Below, in pieces: positions 20,438 through 63,337 of a stretch of 64,000 bases of DNA. The stretch lies in NCBI RefSeq assembly GCF_000427425.1, contig NZ_KE386495.1, positions 450,554-514,553 of the forward strand, given 5' to 3'. The DNA is from Caldanaerobius polysaccharolyticus DSM 13641 (GTDB lineage Bacteria; Bacillota; Thermoanaerobacteria; Thermoanaerobacterales; Caldanaerobiaceae). The notes beneath the pieces were generated by a model. That model saw only the letters and a program-made list of their open reading frames with translations, made no database searches and had not been told where the DNA came from. Within the stretch, counting starts at the first letter, position 1. Each line of letters opens with the position of its first letter. A program made the position numbers and the translations under genes.

Positions 20438-22506
20438 TATCTGTCTTTTAATATTTGATCCGCAATATTCTTGGGAACTTCTTCATAGTGATCAAATTGC
20501 ATGGTATACGTACCGCGCCCTTGGGTCTTGGACCTCAAATCCGTAGCGTACCCAAACATCTCGGCTAACGGCACATAAGCTCTTATAACCTGGGCACCAC
20601 CCCTAGGTTCCATGCCCTCAATTCTTCCTCTCCTGGAATTAATATCTCCCATTATATCGCCCATATACTCTTCAGGCACTACAACTTCCACTTTCATGAC
20701 AGGCTCCAGAAGCACTGGATCGGCTTTTTTCATTCCGTCTTTAAATGCCATAGAAGCGGCTATCTTGAAAGCCATATCCGATGAGTCTACTTCGTGGTAT
20801 GAACCATCGTATAGCGTCACGCCCACGTCCACTACTTCGTATCCGCCCAGTATACCGCTCTGCATAGCCTCCTGGACACCTGCGTCTACTGCGGGGATGT
20901 ACTCTTTTGGAATAACGCCGCCAACGATCTTGTTGACAAATTCGTATCCCTGTCCTCGCTCTCTAGGCGTCAATTCCAGCCAGACGTGTCCGTACTGACC
21001 ATGCCCACCGGACTGCCTTATGAACTTGCCTTCTACCTTGACAGGTTTTCTTATGGTCTCCTTATAAGCCACCTGCGGCTTTCCTACATTGCACTCCACT
21101 TTGAATTCCCTCTGCAACCTGTCTACAATTATCTCCAAATGCAATTCGCCCATGCCCGCAATGATGGTTTGGCCTGTCTCCTGATCGGTATACGTCTTAA
21201 ATGTAGGATCTTCTTCTGATAATTTCTGTAAAGCAATCGCCATCTTCTCCTGCGCATCTTTCGTCTTTGGTTCAATGGCAACATGTATGACGGGCTCAGG
21301 GAATTCCATGGATTCAAGTACAATGGGATGCGCTTCATCGCACAGCGTATCACCTGTGGTAGTGTCTTTGAGTCCCACTGCAGCTCCTATATCTCCTGTG
21401 TACATCTCAGGCATCTCTGTTCTATGATTGGCGTGCATCTGCAGTATTCTGCCGATACGCTCTCTCTTCCCTTTTGTCGAATTGTACACGTATGTCCCCG
21501 ATCTCAACACGCCAGAGTAAATCCTTATAAATACCAACTTACCTACAAAAGGATCGGCCATTACCTTAAAGGCCAAAGCAGAAAATGCCTCATCATCGCT
21601 AGCCTTGCGCTCAATCTCTTCATCGCTATCAGGCGACATCCCTTTAACAGGTGGAATATCCACAGGCGAAGGCAGGAAATCCACTACCGCGTCCAGCAGG
21701 GGCTGAACGCCCTTATTCCTGTAAGCAGAACCGCACAAAACAGGGACGATCTCCACATTTATAGTGCCTTTTCTTATAGCTGCTATGATCTCTTCCCTGG
21801 TAAGCTCTTCCCCTTCCAGGTACTTCATCATCAGCTCTTCATCCTGTTCAGCAGCGGCTTCCACCAGCTTTACCCTGTATTCTTCGGCCAGCTCTTTCAT
21901 GTCATCGGGAATAGGCTGCTCCTCTATAACAGTTCCCAGGTCATCTTCGTAGATCAGCGCTTCCATCTTTACCAGATCCACTATTCCCTTAAAGGTGTCT
22001 TCCTTGCCTATGGGCAATTGCATGACCACAGGCGTAGCATTTAATTTCTTCTTGATCTGATCCACCACGCTGTAGAAATTAGCACCCATTATATCCATTT
22101 TATTGACAAAAGCTATCCTGGGTACATGATATTTATCCGCCTGTCTCCATACGGTCTCAGACTGGGGTTCTACACCGCCTTTAGCGCAAAAAACGGCAAC
22201 AGCGCCATCCAATACCCTCAAGGACCTTTCTACTTCCACAGTAAAGTCCACGTGGCCGGGCGTATCTATGATGTTGATCTTGTGCCCTCTCCACTGGCAT
22301 GTAGTAGCAGCCGACGTAATGGTTATACCTCTCTCCTGCTCCTGCTCCATCCAGTCCATGGTGGCATTGCCTTCATGGACTTCACCTATTTTGTGCACCT
22401 TTCCTGTGTAAAACAGTATCCTCTCAGTAGTAGTGGTCTTGCCGGCATCAATATGAGCCATTATACCGATGTTGCGGACTTTCTCCAATGGAAATTCTCT
22501 AGGCAC
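20437..22506 (-). CDS. fusA: Elongation factor G
   Basis: EF-G catalyses translocation and, with RRF, ribosome recycling. The 689-residue protein has AHIDAGKT at 17-24, the canonical DTPGHVDF with the catalytic histidine, NKMD, and the domain IV block [17 protein letters not shown]. The start is GTG at 22506 because GGAGG lies 6 nt upstream; the open frame reaches 22539 but would overlap rpsG. It sits between rpsG and tuf1 in the str operon. An EF-G paralogue is at 54132-56144. Confidence 0.97.
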
Positions 22507-41304: not shown

Positions 41305-41316
41305 ACCGCCGATTAA

Positions 41317-41346
41317 ATTATACCACATCCTCTTAAAGCATATCAA
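41317..41346 (-). promoter_or_regulatory. Promoter upstream of cysE
   Basis: TTGATA at 41341-41346 and TATAAT at 41317-41322 with an 18-bp spacer. The predicted start near 41310 is only a few bases before the hairpin at 41304. Confidence 0.65.
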
Positions 41347-41360
41347 TAGAAGCCTTTTAT

Positions 41361-43067
41361 CTACATTTCCCTTTGAACCTGGCCCTTTATGTATCCTAAA
41401 ACCTCACCTATAGCCACATCTACCGATTCACCGGTCTTTCTCATCTTTACCTCCACCAGCCCATCCTTGGCCTTTTTACCTACAGTAACCCTTATGGGAA
41501 TCCCTATGAGATCTGCGTCTTTAAATTTAACCCCTGCTCTCTCGTCCCTGTCATCCAGCAATACCTCCACGCCGTTCTGGCAAAGGGTATTATATATATC
41601 TTCAGCAGCAGAAGCCTGGACAGGATCAGCGGAATTTACAGGAACCACTATCACGTGATAGGGTGCTACAGCCATAGGCCATATGATGCCGTTTTCATCA
41701 CTATTTTGCTCTATAATCGCCGCCATTATTCTGTTAATCCCTATCCCATAACTTCCCATAACCATAACGTGTTCCTGGCCGTTTTCATCGAGGTATTTTG
41801 CGCCTAGAGCTTCGCTGTACTTGGTACCCAGCTTAAAAATATGCCCTACTTCAATACCGCTGGAAACAGAAAGCCTGCCACCGCATTTAACGCATACGTC
41901 GCCCTGGCTCACCTTTCTCACATCTGCAACCAAATCCCCTTTGAAATCCCTTCCGTAATTGGCGTTTACGTAATGATAACCAGTTCTATTGGCACCTATT
42001 ATGAAATTGGACATATACGTTACTTCCTCATCGACGATGATCCTATCCGCTTTAAGTCCTATGGGGCCCGCAAATCCTACTTCAGCCCCCGTCACATTCC
42101 TCACCAAATCCTCCTGAGCCATATTAAGGTCATTTTCCGTACACTGGAGGATGTTAATCAGTTTTACTTCGTTAACCTCTCTGTCCCCCCTCACCATTAC
42201 GGCAATGACCTCGCCTTTTACGGTGTAAATAAGGGTTTTAGCAAAATTGTCCGGCGTCGTGCCAAAAAATCTTATCAATTCTTCTATCGTCCTGACACCA
42301 GGAGTGGCAACCATCTGCAGTGGTTTTTCGGGTTGTCTCTCTTTTACATCAGGTTTGGATTGAGCCCTCTCTACGTTGGCTGCGTAATCGCATTTTTCAC
42401 ACAGCGCTATCTCATCTTCCCCGATCTCCGACATCACCATAAACTCGCTAGACTCTTTGCCACCCATAGCGCCCGAGTCAGCCTGTACAGCCCTGTATTT
42501 AAGGCCGCACCTATCAAATATCCTGCAGTACGCGTCATGCATTTTATTAAAAGACGCATCAAGCCCTTCCCAATCCACATCAAAGCTATAAGCGTCTTTC
42601 ATGATAAACTCGCGGCTACGAATAACGCCAAAGCGAGGTCTTTTCTCATCCCTGTACTTCGTCTGGATCTGGTAGAGTATTTTGGGCAAGTCGCGGTAAG
42701 ATGTGAGCTCCTTCATCAAATACGTAAAGACTTCTTCATGGGTGGGTCCCAGGCAGAAATCCCTCTCATGCCTATCTTTAAACCTGAACATATCAGGTCC
42801 AAACACGTCCCATCTGCCCGATTGCCTTAAAAGCTCTGAAGGTATTATAGCAGGCATCAACACCTCCTGCGCGCCAGCCCTGTCCATCTCCTCTCGCACG
42901 ATATTCTCTATTTTTTTCAGGACTCGATAACCCAGCGGAAGGTATATGTACACACCTGCAGCCAGTTTTCTCATTAAACCTGCCCGCAACATAAGCCTGT
43001 GGCTGGTAATCTCGGCTTCCGCAGGTATCTCTCTCAATGTGGGCATAAACAGCTGTGTCAGTCTCAT
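41361..43067 (-). CDS. proS: Prolyl-tRNA synthetase (bacterial type)
   Basis: ProS charges tRNA-Pro. The 568-residue protein has class II motifs ([64 protein letters not shown]), an inserted editing domain at about 225-400 that removes misattached alanine, and a C-terminal anticodon-binding domain. It overlaps ispF as ATGA. Confidence 0.97.
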
Positions 43068-53777: not shown

Positions 53778-53794
53778 TTTGACTTTCTTTGACC
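53778..53794 (-). promoter_or_regulatory. CtsR operator
   Basis: GGTCAAAGAAAGTCAAA is the heptad direct repeat of the CtsR consensus. It lies just downstream of the -10 box at the transcription start, where bound CtsR would block ctsR-mcsA-mcsB-clpC. Confidence 0.92.
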
Positions 53795-53803
53795 TTCGAC
53801 TAT

Positions 53804-53832
53804 AGTATATATTACCATATTTATTTTGTCAA
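53804..53832 (-). promoter_or_regulatory. Promoter of the ctsR operon
   Basis: TTGACA at 53827-53832 and TATACT at 53804-53809 with a 17-bp spacer; the CtsR operator begins 10 bp downstream of the -10 box. Confidence 0.88.
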
Positions 53833-53859
53833 GGGGTCTTTTTAAATTTTTGTCCTAAT

Positions 53860-53884
53860 TTGTTATATAATCGTTATATAACAA
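53860..53884. promoter_or_regulatory. Perfect 11-bp dyad, operator-like
   Basis: TTGTTATATAA and TTATATAACAA flank the spacer TCG. The dyad contains a TATAAT on the plus strand and lies 25 bp before the start of the small membrane ORF and 28 bp behind the ctsR -35 box. Its symmetry and position suggest a repressor site; the protein that binds it is unknown. Confidence 0.55.
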
Positions 53885-53908
53885 TAGCCAAAGGGGGGAT
53901 GATACAGG

Positions 53909-54103
53909 TTGGCAAAATATATTTACATTATTTTAATATACCTTTATTTATTAATCAGCAACGTGGTAATAAAAAAGATAAATTCTATAGTAGCTGTTTT
54001 TCTGATTTATTATATTTTTGGAGTTTTACGGCATACTATCAGGACAGGTGCAATATCTTGTGGCATTGTTAGCAGGATATGCCCTGTCATCATCGTTCTA
54101 TAA
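53909..54103 (+). CDS. Possible small membrane protein, unknown
   Basis: The 64-residue frame starts with TTG 10 nt after AAGGGGGG and encodes two or three hydrophobic stretches (KYIYIILIYLYLLISNVVI; SIVAVFLIYYIFGVL; SCGIVSRICPVIIVL) with few charges. It is the only candidate in the 327 bases between ctsR's promoter and the EF-G paralogue, has a dyad in front and a terminator behind. No family recognised. A second overlapping frame (53860-54072) is less coherent. Confidence 0.45.
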   Translation: MAKYIYIILIYLYLLISNVVIKKINSIVAVFLIYYIFGVLRHTIRTGAISCGIVSRICPVIIVL

Positions 54104-54107
54104 AGAT

Positions 54108-54127
54108 TAGGGGGAATACTCCCCCTA
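54108..54127. terminator. Bidirectional terminator
   Basis: TAGGGGG and CCCCCTA flank a 6-nt loop. On the plus strand it is followed by UAUUUUA, on the minus strand by AUCUUUAU. It sits between two convergent reading frames, 53909-54103 and 54132-56144. Confidence 0.7.
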
Positions 54128-54131
54128 TATT

Positions 54132-56144
54132 TTACGCTTCCTTAGCCAATTTTGTTTGTTCTATTATCTTCTGAGCCAGTTGCGGCGGCATCTCCTCGTA
54201 TCTTTCAAATCTCATGGTAAAGCTACCCCTTGCGTGGGTTAATGACCTCAAATCAGTAGCGTACCTGAACATCTCCGCTTCGGGCACTTCCGCCATTACC
54301 ACCTGTAAATGCCCATCGGGTTGCATACCAAGTATCCTTCCCCTCCGCTTATTTAAGTCGCCTATCACTTCTCCCATATACTCTTCGGGAACTGAGATCT
54401 CCACGTGAAGTATAGGCTCAAGCAGGACGGGACTGGCCTGCTGCATCCCTTTCTTAAAAGCCAACGACGCGGCGACTTTAAATGCCATTTCCGATGAATC
54501 CACAGGATGATACGACCCATCCAGCAAAGTGGCTTTTATATTTACCACGGGGTAACCCGCCAGTATCCCTTCTTTCATGCACTCCCTTAAGCCTTTTTCT
54601 ACCGCCGGTATATACTGCCTGGGAACAGCGCCTCCAAAAATCTTTTCCTGGAATTCAAACTCTTTATCCCGCAAGGGCTCAAATTCTATCCAGACGTGAC
54701 CGTACTGCCCATGACCCCCTGTCTGCTTTTTGTATTTTCCTTCTACTTTAGCTTTCCCTTTTATGGTCTCTCTATACGCCACCTTGGGCACAGTCAATTG
54801 GCAACCTATGCCGAATTTGCTCAATAACCTCTTTACAATGACCTCCAGGTGCACATCCCCATACCCATACAGGAGAAACTGCCCTGTCTCATTGTTCTTG
54901 ATGACTTTAAACGTAGGGTCTTCTTCATTTAACTTCAGCAACCCATTGCTTATCTTCTCTTCATCCCCCTCAGACTGAGGCTCTATGGCCATGGCCATAT
55001 TGGGTTCAGGATACTGCAACCTATCATACACCACGACCTTCTTTTCATCGCAAAGGGTATCTCCCGTAGACGTAACAGCCAGCTTAGCTACACCTCCGAT
55101 ATCGCCACAGCAAAGCTTATCTACAGGAATCTGCTTTTTGCCCCTTAAAACAAAAATCTGCCCTAACTTTTCACCTGATTCTTTAGTGGAATTAAATACA
55201 CCGGAATCAGATGCCGCAAAACCGCTCATAACTTTAAAAAGCGACATCTTGCCTACGTAGGGATCAGCTATGGTTTTAAAGACAAAAGCCGAAAAAGCCC
55301 CATCGCTGTTGTCCACAGGTGCCGGCATGTACTCCACAATGGCATCCATAACAGCGCAAACGCCCATGTTCTTTAAGGCACAGCCACAAAACACAGGAAA
55401 TATGTCTCTTGATGCCATCCCTTTTTTCAACGTTTTCTTTAATTCTCCTAAAGAGAGTTCTTCATTGTTGAAAAATTTCTCCAGCAGATTTTCGTCTAAC
55501 TCCGCTATATCCTCTATCAGCTCTTCTCTAAACCTAGCCACATCACCAGCCATAGGCTCAGGTATATTTGACCTTTTGATTTGGCCCTTATCGTAGATAT
55601 ACGCTGCTCCTTCCAGTAAATCCACATATCCCCTGAAATCGTCTTCCTGACCCACAGGAAGTTGCACTGGTACGACTTTTTTGCCAAAGACCTCTCTTAA
55701 CCCTTCCACAGCCTTAAAAAAACTAGCATTTTCTTTATCCATCTTGTTGACAAAAAACATAGCCGGCAACCCTGCATCATTTAAGTGCTTCCAGGCAATC
55801 TCAGTACCTACTTCAGGCCCAGAAGGTGAAACCACCACCACGGCCCCTTCTACCACCCGCAGCGGCGCCAGCATCTCCCCTACAAAATCAAAGTACCCAG
55901 GTGTGTCAACTAAATTTATCTTTGTAGAGTTCCACTCCACCGGAACGATAGAAGCAGATATGGAAATACCTCTTACAATCTCTTCAGGATCCCAATCAGA
56001 AACCGTATTGCCATCCTCCACATTGCCCATCCTGTCTATGGCCTTGGAACTGTATAAAGCCGCTTCCACCAATGTAGTTTTACCTGCACCGCTGTGGGCT
56101 ACCAGCGCCACATTCCTTATGGCGCTGCATTGATACGCCTTCAT
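54132..56144 (-). CDS. Elongation factor G-like GTPase
   Basis: The 670-residue protein is a full-length EF-G paralogue: AHSGAGKT at 16-23, NKMD, domain [19 protein letters not shown] and a C-terminal EF-G end RYATDLRSLTHARGSFTMRFERYEEMP. It differs from EF-G at key places: switch I reads VRGISISASIVPVEW and the G3 motif is DTPGYFDF, with Tyr for the catalytic His. Such EF-G-like proteins are widespread in clostridia and Thermotogae, and their role is uncertain. It is monocistronic, ending at a shared terminator. Confidence 0.85.
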   Translation of the reverse strand: MKAYQCSAIRNVALVAHSGAGKTTLVEAALYSSKAIDRMGNVEDGNTVSDWDPEEIVRGISISASIVPVEWNSTKINLVDTPGYFDFVGEMLAPLRVVEGAVVVVSPSGPEVGTEIAWKHLNDAGLPAMFFVNKMDKENASFFKAVEGLREVFGKKVVPVQLPVGQEDDFRGYVDLLEGAAYIYDKGQIKRSNIPEPMAGDVARFREELIEDIAELDENLLEKFFNNEELSLGELKKTLKKGMASRDIFPVFCGCALKNMGVCAVMDAIVEYMPAPVDNSDGAFSAFVFKTIADPYVGKMSLFKVMSGFAASDSGVFNSTKESGEKLGQIFVLRGKKQIPVDKLCCGDIGGVAKLAVTSTGDTLCDEKKVVVYDRLQYPEPNMAMAIEPQSEGDEEKISNGLLKLNEEDPTFKVIKNNETGQFLLYGYGDVHLEVIVKRLLSKFGIGCQLTVPKVAYRETIKGKAKVEGKYKKQTGGHGQYGHVWIEFEPLRDKEFEFQEKIFGGAVPRQYIPAVEKGLRECMKEGILAGYPVVNIKATLLDGSYHPVDSSEMAFKVAASLAFKKGMQQASPVLLEPILHVEISVPEEYMGEVIGDLNKRRGRILGMQPDGHLQVVMAEVPEAEMFRYATDLRSLTHARGSFTMRFERYEEMPPQLAQKIIEQTKLAKEA

Positions 56145-61075: not shown

Positions 61076-63337
61076 TTAGTGACACTTAGAAAAACCACAG
61101 TTTCTGCATATAACACAGCCTTCCTCGTGTTCAATCGCTGCCCCGCATTCAGGGCACCTCATTATATCATCCCTATTATCATCCCTAACTTCCACGTCAA
61201 GGGCTATCTCATCTGCCAAATCTGCCTCTTCCAAAGGCTTATGATCTCTTAGCATCATCACTTTTTCAATGACCTTGGCGATGGCGTCAGGACATGAAAG
61301 CACCTTTATGTTCTTATCCCTCTCCTTCTGCCTTATAGTGGAGTGGCACCTTATTCCCTTCAACTGGCCCACTATCTCTTTGACATCCATACCCGACCGC
61401 AGCGCAATGGACACCAGCCTGCTGGTGGCTTCGGATTGAGATGGACAACCCCCCGCTCGTCCCAGATTGGTAAACACCTCGCAAATTCCCTTATCGTCGT
61501 AATTTACCGTGACATAAAGATTACCGCAGCCTATCCTGACCTTCTCCGTATAGCCCATGGTTATCTCAGGTCGTGGTCTGGGCACAATTTTCGCTTTTTT
61601 ATCGCTATTTTCTTTTTTTGTCGACTTGTTAGCACCTACGTTTATAACCTGGCTTTCCCTGCTGCCATCCCTGTATATGGTAACGCCTTTACACCCCAGC
61701 TCATACGCCAGCATGTAAACTTCCCTTACATCGTCTTTTGTAGCATCATGTCTGAAATTTACGGTTTTTGACACGGCATTATCAGTATGTTCCTGAAACG
61801 TCGCCTGCATTTTTACATGCCAGAAAGGGTCGATGTCATGAGCTGTCACAAATACCCTCTTTATATCGTCAGGTATCTCTTGGATGCCCTTTAATGTGCC
61901 TCTTTTAACTACCTCCTCCATGAGCTCCTCAGAATAAAATCCCCTTTTTAAAAGCACCTCTTTAAATGTAGGATTGACTTCCACCAGGCGCTGGTTATCC
62001 AGCACATTTCTCACAAAAGCCAGTGCAAACAAAGGCTCTATGCCACTGGACACACCTGCTATTATGCTTATAGTGCCTGTAGGAGCTATGGTAGTTGTAG
62101 TGGCATTTCTCAGCTTTATACCTCTATCCCTGTATACGCTCTTATCGTAATAAGGGAATACCCCTCTTTGTTCAGCCAGCTCCGCTGATGCCTCTTTGGA
62201 TTTCTCGTCGATGAATTTCATCACATTGTCAGCTAGCTCTACTCCCTCTTGGGAATTATAGGGTATGCCCAATTTCAAGAGCATATCAGCAAATCCCATG
62301 ACTCCCAGGCCGATTTTACGAGTTCCCTTGGTGGTGCTTTCAATGATGGGCAAGGGGTATTTATTTACATCTATCACATTGTCCAGAAATCTTACAGCCA
62401 GCTTAACCGTTCTCTCCAGCTTATCATAATCCACTGTATAGCCGCCTTCCCAAGGCTTTAGCATATTGGCGAGGTTTATAGACCCCAGGTTACAGCTCTC
62501 ATAGGGCAAAAGCGGCTGTTCACCACATGGGTTGGTGGATTCTATCTCTCCCAGCTCCGGGACCACATTGTCCCTGTTGATTCTATCAAGGAAGATGATG
62601 CCAGGCTCGCCGTTATTCCAGGCCATGTCCACGATGAGATCAAATACCTCTCTTGCCCTCAATTTATTTGTGACTTTCTTGGTATGGGGATCTACCAGCT
62701 CATACTCCTGATCTCTTATCACCGCCTGCATAAACTTCTCCGTTATCCCCACGCTTATATTAAAGTTGGTTATCTCGCTGTTGTCCTTTTTACATTGTAT
62801 AAACTCCAGTATATCCGGATGGTCTACCCTCAAGATGCCCATATTGGCCCCTCTCCTGGTGCCTCCTTGTTTTACTGCCTCAGTAGCAGCGTTAAATACC
62901 CTCATAAAGCTTACCGGTCCTGACGCTATGCCGCCCGTCGTCTTTACCGCAGAACCTTTAGGCCGTATGCGGGAAAAGCTAAAGCCCGTCCCTCCGCCGC
63001 TTTTGTGGATGACGGCGGCGTTTTTTACGGCATCAAATATCTCCTCCATGGAATCTCCCACCGGGAGCACAAAACAAGCTGACAACTGCCCTAAAGGTCT
63101 CCCCGCATTCATGAGCGTAGGGGAATTAGGGAGAAAATCCAAATCCGTCATCAACCTGTAAAACTCTTCTTCCATCGCTTTCACATCAGCATTCTCATCG
63201 TACAGCCTTTCAGCTCCCGCGACAGCAGAAGCTACCCTTCTGAATAGCTCCTCAGGGGTTTCGATTATGTTTCCGTTCTCGTCTTTGGCCAGATAACGAG
63301 TTTTAAGTACCTTAATCGCATTTTCCGTAAGCTTCAT
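61076..63337 (-). CDS. nrdJ: Adenosylcobalamin-dependent ribonucleoside reductase (class II)
   Basis: This enzyme reduces ribonucleotides to deoxyribonucleotides using vitamin B12 and works with or without oxygen. The 753-residue protein has [20 protein letters not shown], the active-site motif NPCGEQ at 269-274 followed by CNLGSINLA, and a C-terminal zinc-ribbon-like [22 protein letters not shown] with redox cysteines. No B12 riboswitch is visible in the 12 nt before it. It follows an aminotransferase gene. Confidence 0.95.

Follow-up and report, generated by a model that had tools for sequence, protein, structure and literature searches.

Does the intergenic gap of ~370 bp between ctsR and an EF-G-like gene in this Caldanaerobius genome (2.5 Mb) hold a gene of its own? 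Within the 64-kb stretch of DNA analysed here (64,000 nucleotides; the window), the gap holds a dyad, a ribosome-binding site, a 64-codon frame and a terminator-like hairpin (Table 1), and a preliminary description had read them together as a complete regulated mini-gene. We conclude that the frame is probably a real gene, coding for a small, lineage-specific membrane protein that is possibly toxin-like. The fuller reading that we favor, and to which we give a little less than an even chance, is of a lineage-specific single-gene unit for a small cationic membrane peptide, whose mRNA would control its own translation.

Table 1. Features in and around the gap between ctsR and the EF-G-like gene (window positions unless another genome is named).
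Feature	Position	Strand	Basis or remark
ctsR promoter, TTGACA-17-TATACT	53804-53832	minus	promoter scans; neighbor, outside the mini-gene
Segment missing from the sister species, about 244 bp	53852-54095	none	blastn; edges approximate
Perfect dyad, 25 bp	53860-53884	none	arms 53860-53870 and 53874-53884, 11/11 complementary, 3-nt spacer
Second frame, 70 aa, non-hydrophobic	53860-54072	plus	overlaps the 64-codon frame
Presumed -10, TATAAT	53866-53871	plus	perfect -10; inside the dyad
Predicted local RNA hairpin, GCCAA/UUGGC	53887-53913	plus	masks the TTG start in 3'-shortened RNAs; fold of 53886-53990
Ribosome-binding site, AAAGGGGGGATGAT	53890-53903	plus	duplex of -14.5 kcal/mol with a presumed 16S tail
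Frame, 64 codons, TTG start, TAA stop	53909-54103	plus	cationic peptide, two hydrophobic stretches
Predicted RNA hairpin, strong, within the frame	53985-54042	plus	RNA fold
Predicted RNA hairpin, strong, within the frame	54043-54088	plus	RNA fold; 54036-54098, z -3.58
Predicted pairing partner of 53893-53903 (ribosome-site region)	54089-54099	plus	full-length RNA fold; last bases of the frame
Terminator-like hairpin	54108-54127	both, in scan	where the convergent EF-G-like gene ends; common to both genes
EF-G-like gene	54132-56144	minus	points towards the mini-gene (convergent); precedes ctsR directly in both members of the genus
Dyad beside tilS-like gene	1501-1525 in L045, L046, L047 and L048; also in L081		five genomes viewed

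The ctsR gene was identified by its Pfam domains CtsR and CtsR_C and reads away from the mini-gene, as do the mcsA-, mcsB- and clpC-like genes that accompany it, two of which we take from their translations to be mcsB and clpC. All 24 of the long genes kept for codon analysis of the window lie on the minus strand. Between the ctsR -10 box and start, the minus-strand sequence GGTCAAAGAAAGTCAAA (53778-53794) presumably matches the CtsR heptad consensus, and the bases at this site are nearly identical in the sister species; the site would fit ordinary autoregulation. We note also that positions 20531-21279 of the window share 64% DNA similarity with the sister copy of the EF-G-like gene and may represent a second EF-G gene. 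The sister species (G001) is the only other member of the genus and family in our comparison set and, according to PMC10408702, the family comprises the genus Caldanaerobius only.

The preliminary description of a frame rich in membrane-type residues is well founded. The peptide has a GRAVY of 1.55, ranking first in hydrophobicity among the 101 window ORFs of 55-80 aa, and contains six K/R and no D/E residues. Its two hydrophobic stretches are divided by KK, the basic residues lie at 22 and 23, at 41-47 and within the final third, and the C-terminal end, PVIIVL, is hydrophobic; if made, the peptide would be expected to insert into a membrane. A single-sequence structure model, which is weak evidence, gives one helix over residues 2-63 (pLDDT 88.5). 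When 53852-54131 was shuffled 5000 times, frames of at least 64 aa turned up in 81 shuffled sequences counting either strand, in 58 counting the plus strand, and none of the 5000 contained a frame as long and as hydrophobic. On the minus strand the longest ORF (of at least 20 aa) over the same region is 27 aa.

Signals for expression flank the frame. The G-rich ribosome-binding site described earlier lies at a normal distance from the TTG; a site of equal strength precedes only 5 of 2199 plus-strand start-like codons, its own included. Set beside 25 long minus-strand ORFs, each represented by its best nearby start, it would rank seventh. A terminator is also present, beginning five bases past the stop codon, although it falls just beyond the mini-gene as first delimited and the convergent EF-G-like gene shares it. 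The dyad, too, is perfect around a plus-strand TATAAT, as originally noted. When up to three mismatches are allowed, its pattern is matched once in the window and never in 100 shuffles, and 3000 shuffled versions of the 370-bp gap contain no perfect dyad with arms of at least 11 and a spacer of up to 3; with arms of at least 10 and spacers of up to 8 there are three in the whole 64 kb, the other two of which appear to resemble terminators. The best -35 for this TATAAT, TTTAAA at a spacing of 19 nt, is poor by a rough weight matrix, and the consensus scan listed no plus-strand promoter at the dyad. The description of a complete mini-gene holds for the ribosome site, the hydrophobic frame and the terminator, a combination that exceeds chance; for the word regulated, which we do not find supported, the dyad is the one ground.

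The RNA folding predicted for the full-length transcript (53872-54130) has a z-score of -3.82, or -3.27 with the terminator left out; a good fold is likewise obtained for the minus strand (z -3.42). The 5' half (53886-54035) is unstructured with a z-score of +0.74, and the 3' half gives -4.41 (53980-54098) and -3.58 (54036-54098), with 0 of 200 shuffles reaching either value. The ribosome-site region 53893-53903 is predicted to be 12% unpaired in the complete transcript at 37°C, versus 70-85% in RNAs with 3' ends from 53990 to 54092. Heat weakens this predicted closure, and the corresponding values are 31% versus 72-85% at 60°C, and 43% versus 69-85% at 65°C. The pairing has a canonical core, GAUGAU/AUCAUC, while the G-run forms mostly G-U pairs, and at 37°C 53892-53898 taken alone is still predicted to be unpaired at 31% when the RNA is complete. 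At the same temperature the start codon is predicted to be unpaired at 2-22% in RNAs with 3' ends from 53920 to 54085, and at 46% in the full-length RNA; because it is freer in the full-length than in the shortened RNAs, the two closures would act in succession.

These predictions suggest the following course of events. The RNA would start just past the TATAAT, inside the dyad, and in the nascent RNA a short hairpin would mask the TTG start codon. After synthesis had reached the end of the frame, positions 54089-54099 would fold back onto the ribosome-site region, with the two hairpins of the frame drawing the RNA ends together, and removal of the last frame bases would then reopen the ribosome site. 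That the mRNA is under such type-I-toxin-like control is possible, albeit on the doubtful side. A bolder version, to which we attach very little weight, is that a new or fast-evolving peptide of toxin-like character would be silenced by its own mRNA alone, with no antisense antitoxin, and that the mRNA may be an RNA thermosensor. The start-codon hairpin during transcription and the later 3'-end closure would then be softened by heat, next to the CtsR heat-shock operon of a presumed thermophile.

In outline, the mRNA would work like that of a type I toxin, and membership of that class is putative. Type I toxins are characterized, in PMC6563280 and PMC8309996, as small hydrophobic peptides, usually of fewer than 60 aa, with a transmembrane helix, a charged and mostly cationic C-terminus, an antisense RNA antitoxin, and a toxic effect when expressed that the antitoxin neutralizes; the peptide here is hydrophobic and has no acidic residue, but its 64 aa lie above the usual size limit. 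For AapA/IsoA of Helicobacter, PMC6733600 describes an inert full-length mRNA, a 3'-shortened mRNA that is translated, and transient hairpins that form during transcription (AapA3); it describes Hok with a like mRNA logic. Occlusion of the ribosome site by mRNA folding occurs in several type I toxin families. The AapA/IsoA locus and ours would both have a monocistronic mRNA of small size (225 nt in Helicobacter and, by prediction, about 250 nt at our locus), a small membrane peptide, an end-to-end pairing that occludes the ribosome site and is opened by 3' shortening, and transient local hairpins close to the ribosome site, the pairing and the hairpins being predictions in our case. Compared with what that paper describes, the occluding bases here lie within the frame rather than behind it, with mostly G-U pairs at the G-run, the transient hairpin would mask the start codon rather than the ribosome site, and the locus has no known antisense RNA; at the level of sequence the comparison was through family libraries only. 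Promoter scans gave no minus-strand (antisense) promoter over the frame beyond chance.

The type I toxins of Clostridioides difficile and Bacillus subtilis, as covered by PMC6563280, are peptides of 28-60 aa with charged C-termini, mostly prophage-borne, and have antisense RNAs, which in C. difficile are convergent with the toxin gene. The peptide at this locus is likewise small, hydrophobic and an orphan in sequence, but is 64 aa long, ends in PVIIVL and has no antisense promoter standing out. As described there, clostridial type I toxins are unrelated in sequence to other known toxins, and the absence of relatives is therefore no argument against a toxin. A literature search returned no title on such a gene or toxin in thermophiles, which is not proof of absence.

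Of the alternatives, the one that survives best, although we consider it unlikely, is that this is an ordinary small membrane protein with a role perhaps in the envelope, stress or sporulation, and that the folding of its mRNA is incidental. The same frame and ribosome-site evidence would serve it equally well, and it agrees with the suggestive standing of the RNA measures; the locus resembles those of orphan small membrane proteins in its short hydrophobic frame, its own signals, its restriction to one lineage and its atypical codon usage. The predicted fold-back of the mRNA onto the ribosome site comes in addition to these features, and the fold beats most synonymous permutations in which the protein and codon counts are kept: 10 of 400 reach so low an MFE, and 2 of 400 show an open-to-closed change of that size. 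In the same set, 9 of 400 match the extent of 3'-end pairing and 32 of 400 close the ribosome site just as tightly. Dinucleotide shuffling of the frame gave equally tight closure in 13 of 200 cases and an equally low MFE in none of 200. All these measures were picked after the fold had been seen, and are suggestive only.

We judge it rather improbable that the frame arose by chance in an AT-rich non-coding spacer (GC 0.30 over 53852-54107, compared to 0.45 for the window), with dyad and frame having no common function. Codon usage is atypical and lends the frame no support: its CAI is 0.674, compared to 0.723-0.822 for the 24 genes and 0.746 for the other plus-strand frame that overlaps it. 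Shuffling equalled the codon score in 117 of 2000 cases, two frames on the reverse strand surpass it, and GC by codon position is flat (0.31, 0.28, 0.30). Coding DNA of foreign or recent origin would give such values, and so would DNA that does not code. A chance frame would also agree with the presence of that second plus-strand frame, with the lack of relatives and with the absence of the segment from the sister species (see below), but it has to contend with the 5000 shuffles that yielded no comparable frame, with a ribosome site that is strong and normally spaced, and with a terminator directly past the stop codon.

No family had been recognized for the peptide, and our searches concur, with nothing near cut-off in Pfam, NCBIfam, PHROGs or PADLOC; the best match in these libraries, NF053671 (E 0.034), is far below its own cut-off. 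Among 41 near genomes, 19 have a match at E ≤1, own genome included. The best of those outside (E 0.0055) has three internal stops, and the two best open-frame matches (L003 and L007, both Thermoanaerobacterium-like) are antisense to a 217-aa gene; all three were judged to be chance. Three of 398 phylum genomes, own included, match at E ≤0.001, and the two among the 397 others were rejected, one having four stops and one lying inside a 770-aa frame. The peptide pattern is fitted by 346 stretches in the species collection and by 90 in viral contigs, none of them confirmed, and tblastn left the peptide unmatched in phages and plasmids at E ≤1. At the DNA level, 44 phage records and 19 plasmid records gave matches; the matching pieces are short and AT-rich, span no more than 20% of the query sequence and reach a best E of 0.006, and they were set aside. 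The PDB returned two ferredoxin chains with E about 7. Within its own genome the segment matches itself only at E ≤0.001, and at the 9 of 30 ctsR loci that were viewed, no frame listed before ctsR has a GRAVY above 0.87. The searches of related genomes for peptide and dyad that had been suggested at the outset have thus yielded no convincing relative of the peptide, and a dyad that is single in its own genome.

Absence of the frame from close relatives, which the preliminary description would have held against a gene, is seen in part, in that the sister species lacks the whole segment; judged from the alignment, the difference is the absence of a segment and not decay of the frame. There, ctsR (93% identical at the protein level) stands directly behind the EF-G-like gene and its promoter region is kept. 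The blastn blocks stop at 53851 and restart at 54096, and the flanking sister bases, 21546 and 21547, are adjacent, so that the segment was either gained in this genome or lost in the sister species. Another alignment with different edges is possible, under which the sister species could have lost the segment by way of short G-runs. No target duplication is visible in the alignment of the segment edges, and a mobile element was rejected. Contig C24 of the sister species itself carries ~0.5 kb and ~1.1 kb extra, at window positions 41309-41386 and near 62527; with such stretches private to that species, a difference of 244 bp is not exceptional.

A structured non-coding RNA, with the open frame as a by-product, is a less probable alternative again. 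It could account for the z-scores of the full-length RNA and of 53980-54098, but explains neither why the frame is so extremely hydrophobic nor why there is a ribosome site, and the 5' half is unstructured. The three Rfam matches are all far below their gathering scores, and a two-hairpin model, built from one sequence, found no second copy in 40 other near genomes at E ≤0.1. The 6S RNA of this genome sits elsewhere: RF00013 has its sole match on another contig (C2:841325-841501) and none at the mini-gene. We note that all 17 genomes of family f3 have two 6S RNA matches, that G000 (this genome), G001, G002 and G004 have one each, and that the match of this genome is the weakest, at 51.8 bits.

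The notion that the dyad serves the ctsR operon, with the frame unrelated, is most improbable. The dyad does precede the -35 box of ctsR by ~28 bp, but the sister species retains the ctsR promoter region without a dyad at up to three mismatches. Nor does the dyad behave as an operator of a shared regulator, as it was not found to recur in its own genome or at related genes of relatives: at up to three mismatches there is no second copy in this genome and no copy in the sister genome, and no regulon in this genome that would include the dyad is apparent from these matches. Across near genomes it occurs at that threshold in 16 of 41, versus 5 of 41 for a reversed control, with the exact form in this genome only. 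The exact dyad is present in one stretch of the species collection, on a Dehalococcoidales contig, and in no viral contig searched; the inner 23 bases with one mismatch occur in 4 of 398 phylum genomes (own included), versus one for the control. With relaxed outer arms (TTGTTATA-N9-TATAACAA) this genome has six matches versus four for the reversed control. The same relaxed form was found at 11 places in the sister genome, versus three for its control. The dyad may be the site of a dedicated regulator, or a symmetric promoter element.

In L045-L048 and L081, a gene that we take to be tilS is preceded at ~30 bp by a similarly built dyad, 25 bp long and nearly perfect, of the type ATGTTATATAAT.ATTATATAACAT around TATAAT, with upstream flanks that differ among these five genomes; G016 and G023 have candidate sites that are similar. 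Having examined these dyads of Thermoanaerobacter-like genomes, we regard them as a separate matter from the one described here.

If the gene is real, it would be a previously unrecognized small membrane-protein gene confined to one lineage. Such genes escape family searches, and this locus would provide an example. It would also add another small membrane peptide with an off-switch in its own mRNA, in a presumed thermophilic anaerobe.
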